A DNA stretch of 64,000 nucleotides from Saprospiraceae bacterium (GTDB lineage: Bacteria > Bacteroidota > Bacteroidia > Chitinophagales > Saprospiraceae): assembly GCA_020627535.1 (NCBI GenBank), contig JAHDGU010000001.1, positions 62,001 through 126,000 on the forward strand. The letters run 5' to 3'. The translations under genes were made by a program, and so were the position numbers. The notes under the pieces were generated by a model that saw only the letters and a list, made by a program, of their open reading frames with translations, ran no database searches and had not been told where the DNA came from. Positions 26,527-42,477 of this stretch are shown piece after piece. Positions within the stretch are counted from its first letter, which is position 1. Each line of letters begins with the position of its first letter.

Positions 26527-26571
26527 ATGACCTCGTCAAATCAGAAAGCGAGACAATATGTAAGTCCATGA
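26527..26571 (+). CDS. Possible 14-codon leader peptide before the YfhO-like gene
   Basis: The frame starts ATG ACC TCG and ends at a TGA that overlaps the ATG of the next gene as ATGA. It encodes MTSSNQKARQYVSP. It lies directly behind a perfect -7 box and, given the overlap, could couple translation. It is very short and may be chance. Confidence 0.25.
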   Translation: MTSSNQKARQYVSP

Positions 26572-29084
26572 AAATCAATCGATCTACTCTCATTGAGCAC
26601 TTGGCCGCCATCGTCATCTTGGTAGGCGTAGTCATCGTATTCTTCTTTCCTCAATACCAAGGACAACAGCTAAGGCAAACCGATATAGCTCAGGGTATAG
26701 CCATGCGCGGCGAGATCAATGAATACAAGGAAAAAACCGGCGAAAAATACTACTGGAACAATAGCATGTTTGGTGGGATGCCAGATGGCCTCCTGATCTA
26801 TGGACGAGATTACAATGTACTGAAGTATACTCGCGATATCACCTCGTTCTTCTTGGACAAGGCGACTGGGAATTTTTTGAGAATGGGCCTACTTTGTTAC
26901 TTGGCTTTGATCATATTGGGATTGAGTCCTTGGCTAGCCTTGCTCGCATCTTTGGCACTGGTGCTCAACGTAAACCATCTGGTGTTACTAGAGGCCGGGC
27001 ATAACAACAAGATTCGAGCGATGGCCTATTTCCCTTTGATTTTTGGAGGGATTTATTTGGCCTTCAATCGTGAAAAACTGCCAATGAAGATGCTAGGTGC
27101 GGCAATCTTTGGCGCAGGAGTGTCCATGAGCATCTACGAAAATCACCCACAGATGCTCTATTACTTCCTGCTCGCCACTGGCGTGTGGTTCGCGGCCTAT
27201 GTGATAGCGACAGGGAAGAAGGTCATAGATAGACAATTTGGCTTGACCGTATTGCTACTGGCAGGGGCATTTGTGCTGAGTGTTGGTTCCAATATGGCAC
27301 AGATACGCAGTACCCTTGCCATGGGAGCCAATACGATGAGAGGCGAACCCATCTTACAGGATGATGTCATGCAGAGTAGTAGTAGCGTCAAGGGGCTAGA
27401 CTGGGGCTATGCGACCCAATGGAGCAATAGCGTGGTGGATGTTTGGAGCCTCTTTATCCCTCGTGTAGCAGGAGGCGGTAGTGGAGAGGAAATGTCCAAG
27501 GACTCTGGTATCGGTAAGTACATGAGGATGACTGGCTCGAGACCTGATGCAGATGGGACCTACCTGGCTCCAATGTATTGGGGTAAACTTCCATCTACGA
27601 GTGGTCCCTATTATGTGGGTGCTGTTATATTTTTCTTGTTCGTACTGTCATTCTTCGTGCTTCCCGCAGCTCAGCGCATAGGCTTTGGATTGGCGATATT
27701 GTTGGCAGCCCTGATCTCGCTGGGGAACAACTTTGAGTCATTCAATCGCTTTCTTTTTGACCATTTGCCTTATTTCAACAAGTTTCGGGTGCCGAGCAGC
27801 TTTTTGCATGCCACCTCTTTCCTCTTTATTCTGCCTGCAGTGCTTGCTGTGAGGGCTTTCGCCCAAATGATTCACGATGAAGTAGACAGTAAGACATGGT
27901 TCAACAAGAAGCTGCTACCAGCCGTCATAGTCAGCAGTGGCTTTTGTCTTGTGTTTGTCCTGCTTGGTAAGTCATTGTACGATTTTACCGCTCTCACAGA
28001 TGGTGGATATCCGAAAGAGTTGCAGGATATATTGGTGGAAGATCGCGCCGGTATCATGGTGTCAGATGCCTTGCGGACTCTAGGATATGTGCTGCTTGCT
28101 GCAGTTCTATTATGGGTGTACGCCAAAGGATATCTGAAGAAACCATGGTATCTGTTTTTGGGCCTGATGCTGATCAGTTTTGTCGATCTGTGGCAAGTCG
28201 GACGACGCTACATCGACGAGAGCAACTGGGAAAAAGAGAAAGAGTATAGTGAAGTATTTGCCGAAAGGCCAGTGGATAAGCAGATCAAAAATCTGGAACC
28301 CAAAGGTAGATATGCATATCGAGTGCTCGATATGAGTGTCAATACATTCAATAATGCAAGTACGAGTTTCCATCACAATACGATCGGAGGTTACAATGCT
28401 GCAAAACCTCAGAGGATCATGGATGTGATTGACCGCCTCATCGTCCGTGGGAATCAAGGCGTACTTGACATGATGAATGCCAAGTATGTTATCAACCGTC
28501 AAGGGCAACTGCAGACCAATCCAGGTGCACTAGGCAATGCATGGTTCGTCAAAGAGGTCAAGGCTGTCAATAGCGCTGAGGAGGAAATCAATATGACAGG
28601 CACGATTGATCCTAGTTCGATAGCAGTGGTCAAGCTTGACGAGTTTGAAGCTGTCCAAGAGAAAAGTTACAGTGGTGAGGGGACAATATCATTGACAGAT
28701 TATGTCCCTGGAAGATTGGTGTACAGGGTAGAAACGAGTGCAGAGCAATTTGCTGTATTTTCCGAAGCGTGGTATCCCAAGGGATGGTCTTGTACCATAG
28801 ATGGAGAAGAGACGCCTTTGTTAAGAGCAAACTATATGCTGCGAGCTCTGGAGATTCCTGCTGGAAATCATGAGATCGTAATGACCTTCACACCATGGAC
28901 TGGTGGGAAAGCTGTGAGTCTGATCTGCTCACTACTTCTATTGCTGGCTCTCATCGGAGCGAGTTATCTGACCTACAGAGCTTCTTCGACATCTGAGATC
29001 GAGGCCTCGAGCCCAATGAAATCATCCGTAACTCCTACGAAGTCGACCCAAGGCAAGAAGCATAAAAAAACAAGAAAAAAGTGA
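26568..29084 (+). CDS. YfhO-like polytopic membrane protein
   Basis: An 838-residue membrane protein with about a dozen hydrophobic segments in the first 560 residues (first helix about 11-29) and a soluble periplasmic C-terminal domain, then one last helix near 795-815 and a lysine-rich tail. It matches the YfhO family layout; YfhO members are GT-C type proteins that, in Gram-positive bacteria, glycosylate lipoteichoic acid. The first periplasmic loop contains YYWNNSMFGGMP, typical of the Bacteroidota version. Its stop overlaps the GTG of the next gene by 4 nt, so the two are probably translated together. The transferred sugar is unknown. Confidence 0.8.
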   Translation: MKINRSTLIEHLAAIVILVGVVIVFFFPQYQGQQLRQTDIAQGIAMRGEINEYKEKTGEKYYWNNSMFGGMPDGLLIYGRDYNVLKYTRDITSFFLDKATGNFLRMGLLCYLALIILGLSPWLALLASLALVLNVNHLVLLEAGHNNKIRAMAYFPLIFGGIYLAFNREKLPMKMLGAAIFGAGVSMSIYENHPQMLYYFLLATGVWFAAYVIATGKKVIDRQFGLTVLLLAGAFVLSVGSNMAQIRSTLAMGANTMRGEPILQDDVMQSSSSVKGLDWGYATQWSNSVVDVWSLFIPRVAGGGSGEEMSKDSGIGKYMRMTGSRPDADGTYLAPMYWGKLPSTSGPYYVGAVIFFLFVLSFFVLPAAQRIGFGLAILLAALISLGNNFESFNRFLFDHLPYFNKFRVPSSFLHATSFLFILPAVLAVRAFAQMIHDEVDSKTWFNKKLLPAVIVSSGFCLVFVLLGKSLYDFTALTDGGYPKELQDILVEDRAGIMVSDALRTLGYVLLAAVLLWVYAKGYLKKPWYLFLGLMLISFVDLWQVGRRYIDESNWEKEKEYSEVFAERPVDKQIKNLEPKGRYAYRVLDMSVNTFNNASTSFHHNTIGGYNAAKPQRIMDVIDRLIVRGNQGVLDMMNAKYVINRQGQLQTNPGALGNAWFVKEVKAVNSAEEEINMTGTIDPSSIAVVKLDEFEAVQEKSYSGEGTISLTDYVPGRLVYRVETSAEQFAVFSEAWYPKGWSCTIDGEETPLLRANYMLRALEIPAGNHEIVMTFTPWTGGKAVSLICSLLLLLALIGASYLTYRASSTSEIEASSPMKSSVTPTKSTQGKKHKKTRKK

Positions 29085-38156: not shown

Positions 38157-39668
38157 ATGGGGATCATCGTACGTCAATCAGCCAAGTCTAGCATCATCCT
38201 ATTGGCTGGGGTCCTCGTAGGAGCTGTCAGTACGCTATTCATATACCCATTGTCGCTTGCATTTTATGGGAAGCTCAGATTTATTTTGAGTACTACTTCC
38301 TTGATGCTTCCTTTCTTAAATTTAGGACTCGGGGCAGTCGCCATAAAGTTTTTCCCAGAATTCAGGACTAGTGATTCCAAAACCAATCATGGCTTTTTAG
38401 GCTTTCTTTTTCTAGTGCAGCTGGTGGGATTGATTCTGATTTCTGCGCTCCTTTGGCTCTTTTCGACGGAGCTATTCACGGCTGTTTGGCTTCTCAAGCT
38501 TGATCCTGATGTGTTCTTTGACCACAAGTATCAGATCTATGCCCTGATCGTCTTGACTTGCTTTATTTCTATCATGAATGGCTATTTGGCCAGTCATAAT
38601 AGAATCGTGGTGCCAACGCTATTCACGACATTGAGCAATAAGATTTTCATTCCTTGTCTGGTGCTTCTCTATGTCGCTTTGGGTTCTGGTCAGGAATGGT
38701 TGACTTGGCTGCTGGTAGGCTTTAAGTTTGTTGTGGCGCTAGGTCTTCTGGTCTATTTGTGGTCTCTTCGGGTGCTCTTTCTGAAGATTGACTGGTCTTT
38801 CCTTACCAGATCAAGGAAGAAAGCCATTCTGGACTATGCAGGGATTGGCATCATTGGATCTATAGGTGGTCTTATTGTATTTAGGATTGACACTGTCATG
38901 ATAGCCGCTATGACCTCTGATTTTGTGAAGACGGGTATATATAGCATCGCGCTGTTTATAGCTGGGATTATGACCATTCCATCTACTTCTGTCTTGCGTC
39001 TATTGGGTGTGAGGGTTGCTGAGCACTTTCAGCAAGATGAGTATGCGAAGATTGCTGTTGTGTACAAGAGAGCTTCCTTAGTTCTTATGACCCTAGGCCT
39101 CGTTATTTTTCTTCCGATATACTTCAACCTGGAAGACCTCTTTGGATTCTTGCCAAAGACAGAAGAGCTTAAAACTGGTATATCGGTAGTGCTCTATCTC
39201 GGCGTGGCCCGTCTGATCCACATGACGACAGCGCTGAATGGTCAGATTATATCTTACAGTGCCTACTACCGATGGAATTTGCTTTTCGTTCTTCTGGTAG
39301 GTCTACTCACTGTAATTTTCAACCTTTGGTTGATACCAAAGTACGGTATCAACGGAGCTGCGATCGCTTCCCTTCTCTCTCTTTCATTCTTGAACATTCT
39401 GAAGAGTTTATTTATCTGGTTTGTCTTCAAGATGCAGCCTTTTCAGATAGAGACTGCCTACATTCTCGGGCTCGCAGGTCTGAGCACATTGGTGTTGCAG
39501 ATTCCCTTGTCCCTTGGGCCGGTGGTCAACATCATCTTGAGGTGCGGTGTGATAGCTGCAACTTTTGTATTGCCACTCTATTATTGGAAACTTTCCCCAG
39601 ATTTCAATTATATCGTAGACATTGGACTCAAGAGGATTAAGACACAGAAGAACTCTGAATCGCATTAA
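38157..39668 (+). CDS. Oligosaccharide flippase (Wzx-like), copy 2
   Basis: A 503-residue polytopic membrane protein, paralogous to the flippase at 35326. It begins MGIIVRQSAKSSIILLAGVL, shares the FFPE motif and ends with a similar C-terminal half containing LWLIPKYGINGAAIASL. It probably flips a lipid-linked glycan. It starts 30 bp after the dehydrogenase stop, so both are probably on one transcript. Its last 4 bp overlap the convergent PLP decarboxylase gene. Confidence 0.85.
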   Translation: MGIIVRQSAKSSIILLAGVLVGAVSTLFIYPLSLAFYGKLRFILSTTSLMLPFLNLGLGAVAIKFFPEFRTSDSKTNHGFLGFLFLVQLVGLILISALLWLFSTELFTAVWLLKLDPDVFFDHKYQIYALIVLTCFISIMNGYLASHNRIVVPTLFTTLSNKIFIPCLVLLYVALGSGQEWLTWLLVGFKFVVALGLLVYLWSLRVLFLKIDWSFLTRSRKKAILDYAGIGIIGSIGGLIVFRIDTVMIAAMTSDFVKTGIYSIALFIAGIMTIPSTSVLRLLGVRVAEHFQQDEYAKIAVVYKRASLVLMTLGLVIFLPIYFNLEDLFGFLPKTEELKTGISVVLYLGVARLIHMTTALNGQIISYSAYYRWNLLFVLLVGLLTVIFNLWLIPKYGINGAAIASLLSLSFLNILKSLFIWFVFKMQPFQIETAYILGLAGLSTLVLQIPLSLGPVVNIILRCGVIAATFVLPLYYWKLSPDFNYIVDIGLKRIKTQKNSESH

Positions 39669-40939
39669 GACCAAAAGCTGACGATATCTTCTAGCGTCTC
39701 CTTTTCCTTGCCGATCTGAAGCACTTTATTGCGCTGTGAGTAGACAATTACTTTAGGCATTCTGCGGCTACAGTGCTTAGACCATGTAGACAAGCTATTG
39801 GCCCCAGTATTTCTAATGATGACTCCATCACCGCGCTGATATTTTGGCAAGAACACATCCTTTTGCAATACATCTCCAGCAAAACAGAGTGGTCCTGCAA
39901 GATCATACTTTTCTGTGTCCTGGCGAGATTTCATCTTGCCTTGCGGATTTACAAGTGAATAGGCGTGCTTTTGAGCCGTCGATTGGTATACTTCTCTCAT
40001 GAAGCCGTCAGCTCCGATTTGCAGGATGAGTGTATGATACCCTTCATTTTGGCGAAAGCCAGCAACGCGGCTCCAAGTCCAGCCAGCATGTGCGTAAGTC
40101 CAGCGTCCAAATTCGGTGATGATTCTTGCTCCTTCTATCAATGATCGGCAGTTCTCCTCGATAGCCTTAGAATATCGCTCCAAGACAGGAGCCTGAGAAT
40201 CGTCAAGTCGAACGGATGCGCCTCCACCAATATCAAAGTACTCCAAGGGCTTCAGAGAGTTAGACTTGCGCAATTCGTTGATACTGGCAAATAGCTCAGC
40301 TACTTTCTTTAAGACGACGACGTTTCTCTCGATGCCATCGATGTCAGACCCAGCATGTATGTGCAATCCGACGATGTCAGGGCGGTGGCCGCAGTATCTT
40401 ACAATCTCATCATATCTGGTAATTGCCTCACCAAATTTGCTTCGAGCGGCCCCAACATCAAAGATCTCAGGAGCGCCAGAGTTCATCATCGGCAAGATTC
40501 TAAGACCCAAGTTCAACCCATGTCCAACTGGAAACAGGTCTAGCTCTTCAAGAGAATTGGCGTTGACATATGCACCTGGGAAGTTCTGTATGCAGTACTC
40601 GATCTCATCTTTGGTCTTAGCGGGACTATCCCATACCATGTTTTCGCTCGGGAATCCGGCCTTCCGAGCGATGACGAGTTCTTCCAAGCTGGCAGCCTCA
40701 GCACCAAATCCTTGACTTGCGATGTGCTTGAGCGTGCAGAGAAGAGGATGTGTTTTGATGGGAATCGCATGCAAACTTCCGACAGGAAATACCTCCCGCA
40801 AGTGATGGAGGCGCTGGTCGAGTATGTCAAGATCTACAAAGAAGATGCACTGATCGTCCTCCGAGAGATGGCCGAGCTCTTGAGACTTGTGTAGAGCCCA
40901 TTCGATGGTCGAATCGCTAGTGAGTAGAAGAGACGGCAT
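39665..40939 (-). CDS. Fold-type III PLP decarboxylase (diaminopimelate/ornithine type)
   Basis: The 424-residue protein has the alanine-racemase-like barrel of the diaminopimelate decarboxylase family. The lysine that binds PLP is in HAIPIKTHPLL (about residue 63), GLHIHAGSD and FDIGGGAS follow, the phosphate-binding glycine-rich element precedes ITEFGRW, and the C-terminal domain has GPLCFAGDVL at the place of the family's CxxxD signature. It should decarboxylate an amino acid or a carrier-linked substrate. It is the second gene of a pair: its start overlaps the upstream fold-type I PLP gene by 23 bp. It is not the housekeeping lysA, since no lys or dap genes are nearby. Confidence 0.75.
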   Translation of the reverse strand: MPSLLLTSDSTIEWALHKSQELGHLSEDDQCIFFVDLDILDQRLHHLREVFPVGSLHAIPIKTHPLLCTLKHIASQGFGAEAASLEELVIARKAGFPSENMVWDSPAKTKDEIEYCIQNFPGAYVNANSLEELDLFPVGHGLNLGLRILPMMNSGAPEIFDVGAARSKFGEAITRYDEIVRYCGHRPDIVGLHIHAGSDIDGIERNVVVLKKVAELFASINELRKSNSLKPLEYFDIGGGASVRLDDSQAPVLERYSKAIEENCRSLIEGARIITEFGRWTYAHAGWTWSRVAGFRQNEGYHTLILQIGADGFMREVYQSTAQKHAYSLVNPQGKMKSRQDTEKYDLAGPLCFAGDVLQKDVFLPKYQRGDGVIIRNTGANSLSTWSKHCSRRMPKVIVYSQRNKVLQIGKEKETLEDIVSFWS

Positions 40940-42320
40940 CAGGCACCAGTTTGTTAATCAAAAAGATGAGGTGCCTGTCATTGTGAAAATCAATACCAGT
41001 CTTGAGAAGCCGCCTGACATTATAGCTTCCTAGAGCGATTCGCAAAAATGCCTTGTCGCCATATATCACGGGTTGACCGATAAATACTCGAGCAAATTTC
41101 TTGAATCCTTGATGCCTAGAGGTAACCACAAGCTTGAATAGCTCTTTCATCTCCTCAGGTGTCAGATATCTCTCATCGTATTTGGCTCTGAAGGAGATGA
41201 TACTATCATTCGTCTGATCTTGATTTGGCATCAATTCAAGATTATCCTTTGCATTAATCTCTGAAGTACACAGCTCAAACCAATCGCGTATCAATCCTCC
41301 TGTATCCTCATGAGGCAATCTGTCAAACTCTCGCATCTCGTGAAGGGCACAGACCCATCGCATTGCAAGACCTCGATTTTCAAATGGCTGAAATCGGCTG
41401 CGCAGTTGAGGCAGACTGGGCGGTATATCATTTTGGCTGAAAAGCCGCTGATAGGGTGCGAAGTCAATGTCTTTTACAGACTCGAGCTTTCGAGATAGCG
41501 CTTTGGGGACCAGAAGCGCCCCGCAGAATGGAGGCGATTGATAAAACTTGCTTCCCGTAATCATGACCGCACATCCCTTGTCAAGAAGGTCATTGATTAA
41601 GATCTTACGATTTCTGAATTGACAGAGATCGACGACCCAGAGGATGTCTTTCTTGGTATCCGTCACGACCTTGATATCATTCTCGATGCCGGATTTACTG
41701 CCCACGACGAGATAGCCGATCATGGCACGGTCATCGATGTCCTTGACGTATCTAGAGATCGCAGTACGATGGTCATTGATCTCGCCATTTTCTGCTCTTG
41801 CTGGGAAGCTCTTGGTCTCAATGATCCCACTGTCAAACAGCTGCCCTTCTTCTTGCACCGACTCACCAAATTGATTTTGGGACATGAAATATTGGCCCTT
41901 GGCTGCCTTGATGGTGCCACTTCCCAGCTCTTCCGGACAACTCACTAGACTAAGAATCTCCTTGTCAGGATGAAGCAATTGAGAAAACAAAATAGGGTAG
42001 TAGGTCAGATCACTGCCACTGGGCGCGAGAAAGACGTCAAACCGGTCCTCTCCAGGGAAGTTGAGCAACTTCTTGAGACCAATCCTGATCATTCGGTAGA
42101 GCTGATGGATTTCACGCTCCATCGCTTCATGCAAGATCGCCTCCGTCTCCTCGTTCAGCGCGCTGCACGTGCAAGAGCCACGATTGAGCAAACCTTGATA
42201 ATCTGCAGGATTGACGAAGTACTTATTGGTCCCAAGTTCACTGAGTATCTCTATCCGCTTATCTCCTCCCTGTGTGATCAAACTCTCCAGATCCACAGCT
42301 GATTTTGGCTCTTCTATCAT
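40917..42320 (-). CDS. Fold-type I PLP-dependent enzyme, unknown reaction
   Basis: A 467-residue protein resembling class V aminotransferases. Visible features are APSGSDLTYYP (about 98-108), a glycine-rich EELGSGTIKAAKG near 132-144, VVDLCQFR with a candidate cofactor aspartate at about 233, and ITGSKFYQSPPFCG (about 257-270), whose lysine should bind PLP. I recognise no named family. The ATG at 42320 has a GAGGA sequence upstream; a longer frame begins at a TTG (42353). The 23-bp overlap with the following decarboxylase implies that the two enzymes act in one pathway, perhaps making an unusual amine or amino acid for the neighbouring glycan. Confidence 0.7.
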   Translation of the reverse strand: MIEEPKSAVDLESLITQGGDKRIEILSELGTNKYFVNPADYQGLLNRGSCTCSALNEETEAILHEAMEREIHQLYRMIRIGLKKLLNFPGEDRFDVFLAPSGSDLTYYPILFSQLLHPDKEILSLVSCPEELGSGTIKAAKGQYFMSQNQFGESVQEEGQLFDSGIIETKSFPARAENGEINDHRTAISRYVKDIDDRAMIGYLVVGSKSGIENDIKVVTDTKKDILWVVDLCQFRNRKILINDLLDKGCAVMITGSKFYQSPPFCGALLVPKALSRKLESVKDIDFAPYQRLFSQNDIPPSLPQLRSRFQPFENRGLAMRWVCALHEMREFDRLPHEDTGGLIRDWFELCTSEINAKDNLELMPNQDQTNDSIISFRAKYDERYLTPEEMKELFKLVVTSRHQGFKKFARVFIGQPVIYGDKAFLRIALGSYNVRRLLKTGIDFHNDRHLIFLINKLVPDAVSSTH

Positions 42321-42477
42321 AATCGCTTTGTTCCTCGCCGGCAAATTAAGCAATCTTGCTCATTCACACATGCAAAGGTAATTCACGGCGGTCTGAGGAG
42401 CCTTTCGGCAAAATGTGCTGTTGAGCTCAGATTTCTTCTGATCTCTTGGTTTGCTTGTCTTTTCTGACCTTTACGGC

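Follow-up and report, generated by a model that had tools for sequence, protein, structure and literature searches.

A putative two-enzyme PLP module with overlapping genes in Saprospiraceae and related bacteria

The 64,000-nucleotide stretch of Saprospiraceae bacterium DNA analyzed here (GenBank assembly GCA_020627535.1, contig JAHDGU010000001.1, positions 62,001 to 126,000; hereafter the window) carries two overlapping open reading frames (ORFs) for pyridoxal 5'-phosphate (PLP) proteins: PLP1, of fold type I, and DC, a fold-type III decarboxylase related to diaminopimelate (DAP) decarboxylase (DapDC). It is moderately likely that they form a translationally coupled two-enzyme module in which an amino acid with no distal amine is turned into an amine, and PLP1 and DC probably catalyze two steps of one amine-producing pathway. 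Families, conservation, pairing, co-evolution and residue changes were computed here. No description of the pair was found in the open-access literature searched for it or for related decarboxylases.

The PLP1-DC pair and its conservation

The sequence-only reading of the window had described two minus-strand ORFs overlapping by 23 bp, and the coordinates of both were confirmed. The features are as follows.

40917..42320, minus strand: PLP1, fold-type I (class-V-like) PLP enzyme of a new family, 467 aa (ATG 42320, stop 40917)
39665..40939, minus strand: DC, DapDC-like fold-type III decarboxylase, 424 aa (ATG 40939), with CFAGD replacing CE[S/T][G/S]D
40917..40939, minus strand: overlap of the PLP1 and DC frames, 23 bp
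41520..41561, minus strand: PLP1 lysine motif ITGSKFYQSPPFCG, with the PLP lysine K258 and a glycine-rich turn
41628..41642, minus strand: PLP1 codons 227-231, ending in D231, the pyridine-nitrogen aspartate of DxxQ; Q234 follows
41916..41939, minus strand: PLP1 codons 128-135 (CPEELGSG), with E131 aligned to the cofactor-stacking His of NifS-like enzymes
39872..39895, minus strand: DC motif GPLCFAGD, with C352, F353 and D356
42373..42380, minus strand: TACCTTTG, a candidate promoter box 60 bases upstream of ATG 42320

Relatives of PLP1 at 38-66% identity were found in 79 public loci. Four paired sequences supplied the two peptide patterns used to retrieve them, a procedure that favors close relatives. 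One locus (L050) gave no anchor, so that context is counted over 79 loci, namely 78 public ones and the window. The hosts are mostly Saprospiraceae and Cryomorphaceae/Schleiferiaceae, with a few contigs of metagenome-assembled genomes labelled Calditrichota, cyanobacterium, Acidimicrobiales and Deltaproteobacteria. In 75 of the 79 loci DC follows PLP1 immediately and in the same orientation; as for the remainder, L096 and L097 end at a contig edge, the next ORF of L093 (Thiorhodococcus drewsii) reads as a transposase, and L099 has phage-like ORFs near its contig end. Because relatives occur in 79 loci and DC adjoins PLP1 in 75 of them, the arrangement is not due to chance. Counted from the nearest usable DC start, the two frames overlap in 59 of 76 loci, and this start lies at -4 in 38 of 76, a choice of start that biases the counts toward overlap. 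In the window, the only ATG, GTG or TTG of the DC open frame, from its upstream stop to 100 bases past the PLP1 stop, is ATG 40939. PLP1 and DC co-evolve: their distance matrices (72 pairs of 76) correlate with r 0.924, as against 0.183 for the best of 1000 permutations, a correlation that also reflects shared descent. The pairing is retained at about 24-30% PLP1 identity (L020 and L021). The proposal that the two genes act jointly is thus supported by their adjacency, overlap and correlated distances, and the genes proved neither rarely adjacent nor a standard, characterized pathway pair.

Three alignments underlie the conservation counts given below: A5, with the window and 41 of 44 non-redundant PLP1 sequences (leaving out L049, L074 and L097); A6, with the window and 34 of 38 DC sequences (leaving out L033, L037, L038 and L041); and A7, with 23 chosen PLP1 members.

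Families and active-site residues of PLP1 and DC

No credible match to PLP1 was found in Pfam (where the top hit, at 0.011, was an unrelated model), in NCBIfam, or among PDB sequences, whether a single sequence, a 42-row profile or a 23-row profile was used. Likewise, none of the 23 diverse PLP1 members had a credible Pfam match, and all of them fell short of the gathering score of aminotransferase class V (PF00266). The absence of a named family, which had been noted from the sequence alone, therefore extends to the relatives. The AlphaFold2 model of PLP1, built from the 42-sequence alignment (pLDDT 90.0, pTM 0.90), falls among class V enzymes in Foldseek and VIA comparisons, in keeping with the fold type I originally proposed. 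The top match is the NifS-like 4ixo (Z 23.9 over 325 residues, 3.2 A, 8% identity), and AGXT and AEP transaminase follow at most 1 Z unit below it, with no single standout. A global hhalign comparison of the PLP1 profile with a class V profile gave a probability of 88.8 and an E-value of 2.8e-7, the class V profile consisting of six sequences only and local mode giving a probability of 61.6 and an E-value of 7.7e-5. This alignment places K258, the lysine of the previously predicted motif at 41561-41520, on the PLP lysine, D231 and Q234 on DxxQ, and E131 on the His that in NifS-like enzymes stacks on the cofactor. K258, D231, Q234 and R427 are invariant in all 23 members of an alignment reaching 22% identity, as are E131, K209, R22, R175, R236, R321 and Q416. 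By modelled fold and by the positions of its Asp, Gln and Lys, PLP1 is thus classed as a class-V-like fold type I PLP enzyme. Because of its extra invariant arginines, its sequence suggests an anionic substrate.

DC is a member of the Orn/DAP/Arg decarboxylase superfamily of fold type III: its two Pfam matches (2.1e-22 and 9.5e-12; PF02784 and PF00278) lie above the gathering score, and it holds the catalytic Lys, His, Glu and Cys. DapDC is its nearest relative both by profile (2p3e, 8.3e-60) and by structure (3c5q; Z 41.8 over 380 residues, 2.3 A), followed by BtrK, DokD, FslC and ODC. K62, H195, S198, E276, C352 and R315 are invariant in all 35 aligned DC sequences, and correspond to K46, H179, S182, E246, C314 and R285 of Thermotoga maritima DapDC (2YXX). 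Where DapDC chains have CESGD, CESSD or CETGD, DC has CFAGD; the altered CxxxD motif picked out earlier is thus invariant in the family, with F353 in 35/35 sequences. In the 2YXX alignment F353 takes the place of E315, the reader of the distal amine. The DapDC lid motif (THPYIxTG in the aligned chains) is gone. DapDC-like proteins with GP[CA]CF[AS]GD are also seen on Streptomyces and Arthrobacter plasmids (L112 and L114); the Arthrobacter protein is annotated as a diaminopimelate decarboxylase despite having no distal Glu, and is likely misannotated.

The residue roles are those given for T. maritima DapDC in PMC8277567, where an Asp or Glu reads the distal amine in ODC, ADC and DapDC. In the same paper, substitution E315F lowers DAP activity from 675 to 36 mU/mg, a loss of ~95%, while gaining 21 on 2-aminopimelate, 3.2 on alpha-aminoadipate and about 4 on D-norleucine and D-Phe (PMC8277567). 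As E315 is replaced by F353, R285 is kept as R315, and the E315F enzyme behaves as described there, DC is predicted by analogy to use an amino acid that has no distal amine and may carry a distal acid held by R315.

These residues bear directly on two pathway assignments. A role of DC as a second diaminopimelate decarboxylase, placing the pair in lysine or peptidoglycan precursor metabolism, would fit its closest sequence and fold matches (2p3e and 3c5q), but is very improbable: a canonical lysA sits at another place in the genome (379.1 bits, compared with 175.3-175.8 for DC and a TIGR01048 cut-off of 297.9), in agreement with the earlier remark that no lysine gene is nearby, the distal-amine Glu is Phe throughout, the lid is lost, and the corresponding Thermotoga substitution removes most DAP activity (PMC8277567). 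A polyamine pathway, with DC as a carboxynorspermidine- or ornithine-type decarboxylase fed by PLP1, is quite unlikely. DC is weakly similar to nspC, at 38.3 bits, far under the TIGR01047 cut-off of 409; nspC above the cut-off is found in 0/8 cassette- or DC-bearing genomes, which leaves room for a substitute; and the Asp or Glu that reads the distal amine in ODC, ADC and DapDC (PMC8277567) is Phe in all 35 DC sequences. These results lower the likelihood of the polyamine route, which is retained as an alternative.

Other assignments of DC were rejected. For a decarboxylase of siderophore synthesis independent of non-ribosomal peptide synthetases (NRPS), of the FslC/SbnH type, the source genome has 0 matches to IucA/IucC (PF04183), consistent with the earlier remark that no siderophore gene is nearby, and DC scores 61.3 against the 500 bits of the FslC model. 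It reaches 88.7 bits against a cut-off of 478 for the exosortase-associated decarboxylase TIGR03099. Supply of beta-alanine in place of panD was dismissed, the source genome having panD; this gene is present in 6/8 cassette- or DC-bearing genomes, G113 and G378 being those without. A third fold-type III paralogue of the source genome lies at C1:185621.

Gene neighborhood and the glycan locus

In the window, the cassette had been placed at the edge of a polysaccharide locus. The position is right, as glycan genes occupy 25-39.7 kb (glycosyltransferases, YfhO, a sulfotransferase, two flippase-like proteins and a UDP-sugar dehydrogenase), but the cassette is convergent to this plus-strand locus and therefore not in that operon; the DC stop overlaps its last, flippase-like gene by 4 bp. 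The YfhO-family membrane protein of the locus is encoded at 26568-29084. Upstream of PLP1 lies a divergent enoyl-CoA hydratase gene, and an in-frame TTG occurs at 42353, ahead of the PLP1 ATG. The candidate box TACCTTTG resembles the -7 promoter box of Bacteroidota.

Neighbors differ among loci, and because of this the cassette looks self-contained. In 28 loci (e.g., L049:8904-9968) the gene immediately 5' of PLP1, in the same orientation, encodes a TseH-like/DUF6695 protein (cluster c3), and in 18 a YfhO-like gene lies on the opposite strand; YfhO-like genes adjoin the cassette in many Schleiferiaceae-type loci. In a contig labelled as a Prochloraceae cyanobacterium (L040), a class I methyltransferase and an O-methyltransferase flank the cassette in the same orientation, as in a small natural-product locus. 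A capsule-protein assignment for neighbor family c34 had no Pfam support, and the family was left uncounted. A defence system was also rejected, with no PADLOC match for 6 proteins.

The sequence-only reading had further proposed that the product may decorate the adjacent glycan. On a surface polysaccharide, such an amine or amino acid could, for instance, form an amide with a uronic acid. In favor of this proposal, the cassette of the window abuts a locus having a UDP-sugar dehydrogenase, and part of the Saprospiraceae cassettes are embedded among UDP-sugar dehydrogenase, sugar transferase, DegT and CapD-like genes. However, in raw counts of nine glycan families, taken without a genome-wide background, at least one family is nearby in 29/79 loci and none in 50/79, and at least two different families are close by in just 10/79, all of Saprospiraceae type. 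The cassette of the window also stands outside the glycan operon, and the nearest PLP1 relative (66% identity) sits in other surroundings, read by eye as thioredoxin-like and rhodanese genes. The proposal is thereby weakened to an unlikely one; glycan decoration is possible in one lineage and not general.

The wider family and the proposed module

An unbiased sample of 395 genomes, drawn evenly across Bacteroidota, contains PLP1 in 15, the same set being recovered by single-sequence and profile searches. It is paired with DC in five of these (G000, G103, G197, G359 and G378) and with a group II decarboxylase in three (G079, G083 and G392), once as a fusion. The latter partner (PF00282) adjoins the PLP1 relatives of L025, L142 and L143, and is fused to that of L023. 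The fused gene (L023:7658-11299, in G079) encodes a single 1214-aa chain made up of an N-terminal extension, the PLP1 domain and the group II PLP decarboxylase. The extension, shared by the Flavobacteriaceae and fused forms, had no credible Pfam or PDB match. Additional PLP1 relatives reside on 33 rhizobial plasmids, where the homologue of Rhizobium tumorigenes (L107) overlaps a group II decarboxylase gene whose product is 43-44% identical to the group II partners of the G079, G083 and G392 forms. Since two unrelated decarboxylase folds partner one PLP1 family, decarboxylation is probably the logic common to these partnerships.

We infer the activities of both enzymes, the order of their steps and an amine as the end product as follows. 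In the first step, PLP1 would take an alpha-amino or alpha-keto acid with an anionic side chain and make or reconfigure an unusual amino acid, a transaminase-like reaction being the default guess. In the second step, which is better supported than the first, DC would decarboxylate this product to an amine, using the retained catalytic apparatus and the one distal-carboxylate Arg, with Phe in place of the distal-amine Glu. The overlapping frames would keep both enzymes stoichiometric and could aid handover of the intermediate.

Several observations weigh against this scheme. At residue 279 of DC (R249 in Thermotoga), 18 of the 35 sequences have Arg, 16 Gln and one Ala, and N381 replaces the phosphate-binding Tyr (Y343) in 34/35, so that the Thermotoga analogy is imperfect. 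Seven of the 15 PLP1 genomes, Flavobacteriaceae-like and with the N-terminal extension, have neither decarboxylase in the flanks covered (~9 kb in 3, ~1.5 kb in 4), and PLP1 can therefore work without one. Only 1/6 of the rhizobial relatives examined is paired, and on plasmids of Sinorhizobium medicae (L108) and Rhizobium jaguaris (L109) the PLP1 homologue is directly downstream of NRPS genes. Finally, among the 10/395 genomes that match a CFxGD DNA pattern, G340 and G113 have a true DC-like gene without PLP1, and G378 carries, besides its paired gene, one that is unpaired; the DC substrate thus need not always come from PLP1. No DC-like ORF was found at the pattern matches in G246, G366, G277 and G128. 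The unpaired proteins of G340 and G113 retain the canonical Tyr (GAY...YNSR), where paired ones mostly have GAN...HCSR. The L108 and L109 homologues are annotated as hypothetical, and a phosphopantetheinyl transferase is encoded nearby.

An alternative first step is that PLP1 is a racemase, epimerase or D-transaminase supplying a D-amino acid to DC as a natural D-amino-acid decarboxylase. One rhizobial homologue (L106) lies beside the D-amino-acid genes dat and dmpA, two further rhizobial loci being unannotated, and E131, acidic and by alignment opposite the Lys, could serve as a second acid/base. The D-centers on which Thermotoga DapDC and its E315X variants work (PMC8277567) also favor a D-amino acid. 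Against this, DC has not conserved the lid by which the D-carboxylate is read, the PDB names BtrK, which shares the DC fold, an L-glutamyl-ACP (acyl carrier protein) decarboxylase, and group II decarboxylases, the other partner, use L-amino acids. Overall the alternative is considered unlikely. A broader version of the two-step module may be entertained tentatively, though it is doubtful: PLP1 would found an unrecognized fold-type I family in which an acidic residue sits over the cofactor and the chemistry is new, for example by racemizing an acidic amino acid or rearranging its side chain; together with DC it would provide a new amine route via a D- or non-proteinogenic amino acid; and a second decarboxylase fold would have been recruited separately in other bacterial groups.

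Few enzyme groups are catalogued as well as the PLP enzymes, yet PLP1 is widespread, its catalytic residues are invariant, it has an unusual residue over the cofactor and a strictly paired decarboxylase, and none of 23 members has a credible Pfam match; it is therefore promising in the search for new chemistry. If its product were identified, this would also tell what dozens of unnamed genes do, both in marine Bacteroidota and on plasmids of rhizobia. DC, in turn, is a natural Glu-to-Phe version of DapDC. It mirrors a mutant made for decarboxylating 2-aminopimelate on the way to a nylon-6 precursor (PMC8277567), so that the substrate question is directly testable and the answer could be useful.

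Compared with known systems, the cassette comprises a new family (PLP1) and a new subfamily (DC) inside known superfamilies. PLP1 shares with NifS, AGXT and AEP transaminase the fold (Z 22-24), DxxQ, the Lys and a carboxylate-type Arg, at an identity of just 8-14%; it differs from them in the Glu at the ring-stacking position, the additional invariant Arg residues, the missing Pfam match, an N-terminal GGDxR...Y...SxT motif and an SK(S/T)G motif. DC resembles DapDC (LysA; 2YXX and 3C5Q) in fold (Z 40-42), PLP lysine, His, Glu, partner-subunit Cys and one distal-carboxylate Arg, whereas it has CFxGD for CE..D, Asn for the phosphate-binding Tyr (34/35), Gln or Ala for the second distal Arg (17/35), and no lid motif. 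With BtrK, DC has in common fold type III (Z 37.3) and a side chain without a free distal amine; BtrK, on the other hand, has a CTPED motif and nothing equivalent to R315 in the pairwise alignment, and no conserved ACP or ligase gene occurs in the DC neighborhoods inspected. In the 1,3-diaminopropane route, diaminobutyrate aminotransferase and decarboxylase likewise join a fold-type I aminotransferase, coupled or fused, to a PLP decarboxylase. The cassette differs from that route in that PLP1 does not belong to the class III aminotransferases and DC has fold type III; only the group II partner of the distant PLP1 relatives resembles diaminobutyrate decarboxylase (2qma among the matches).

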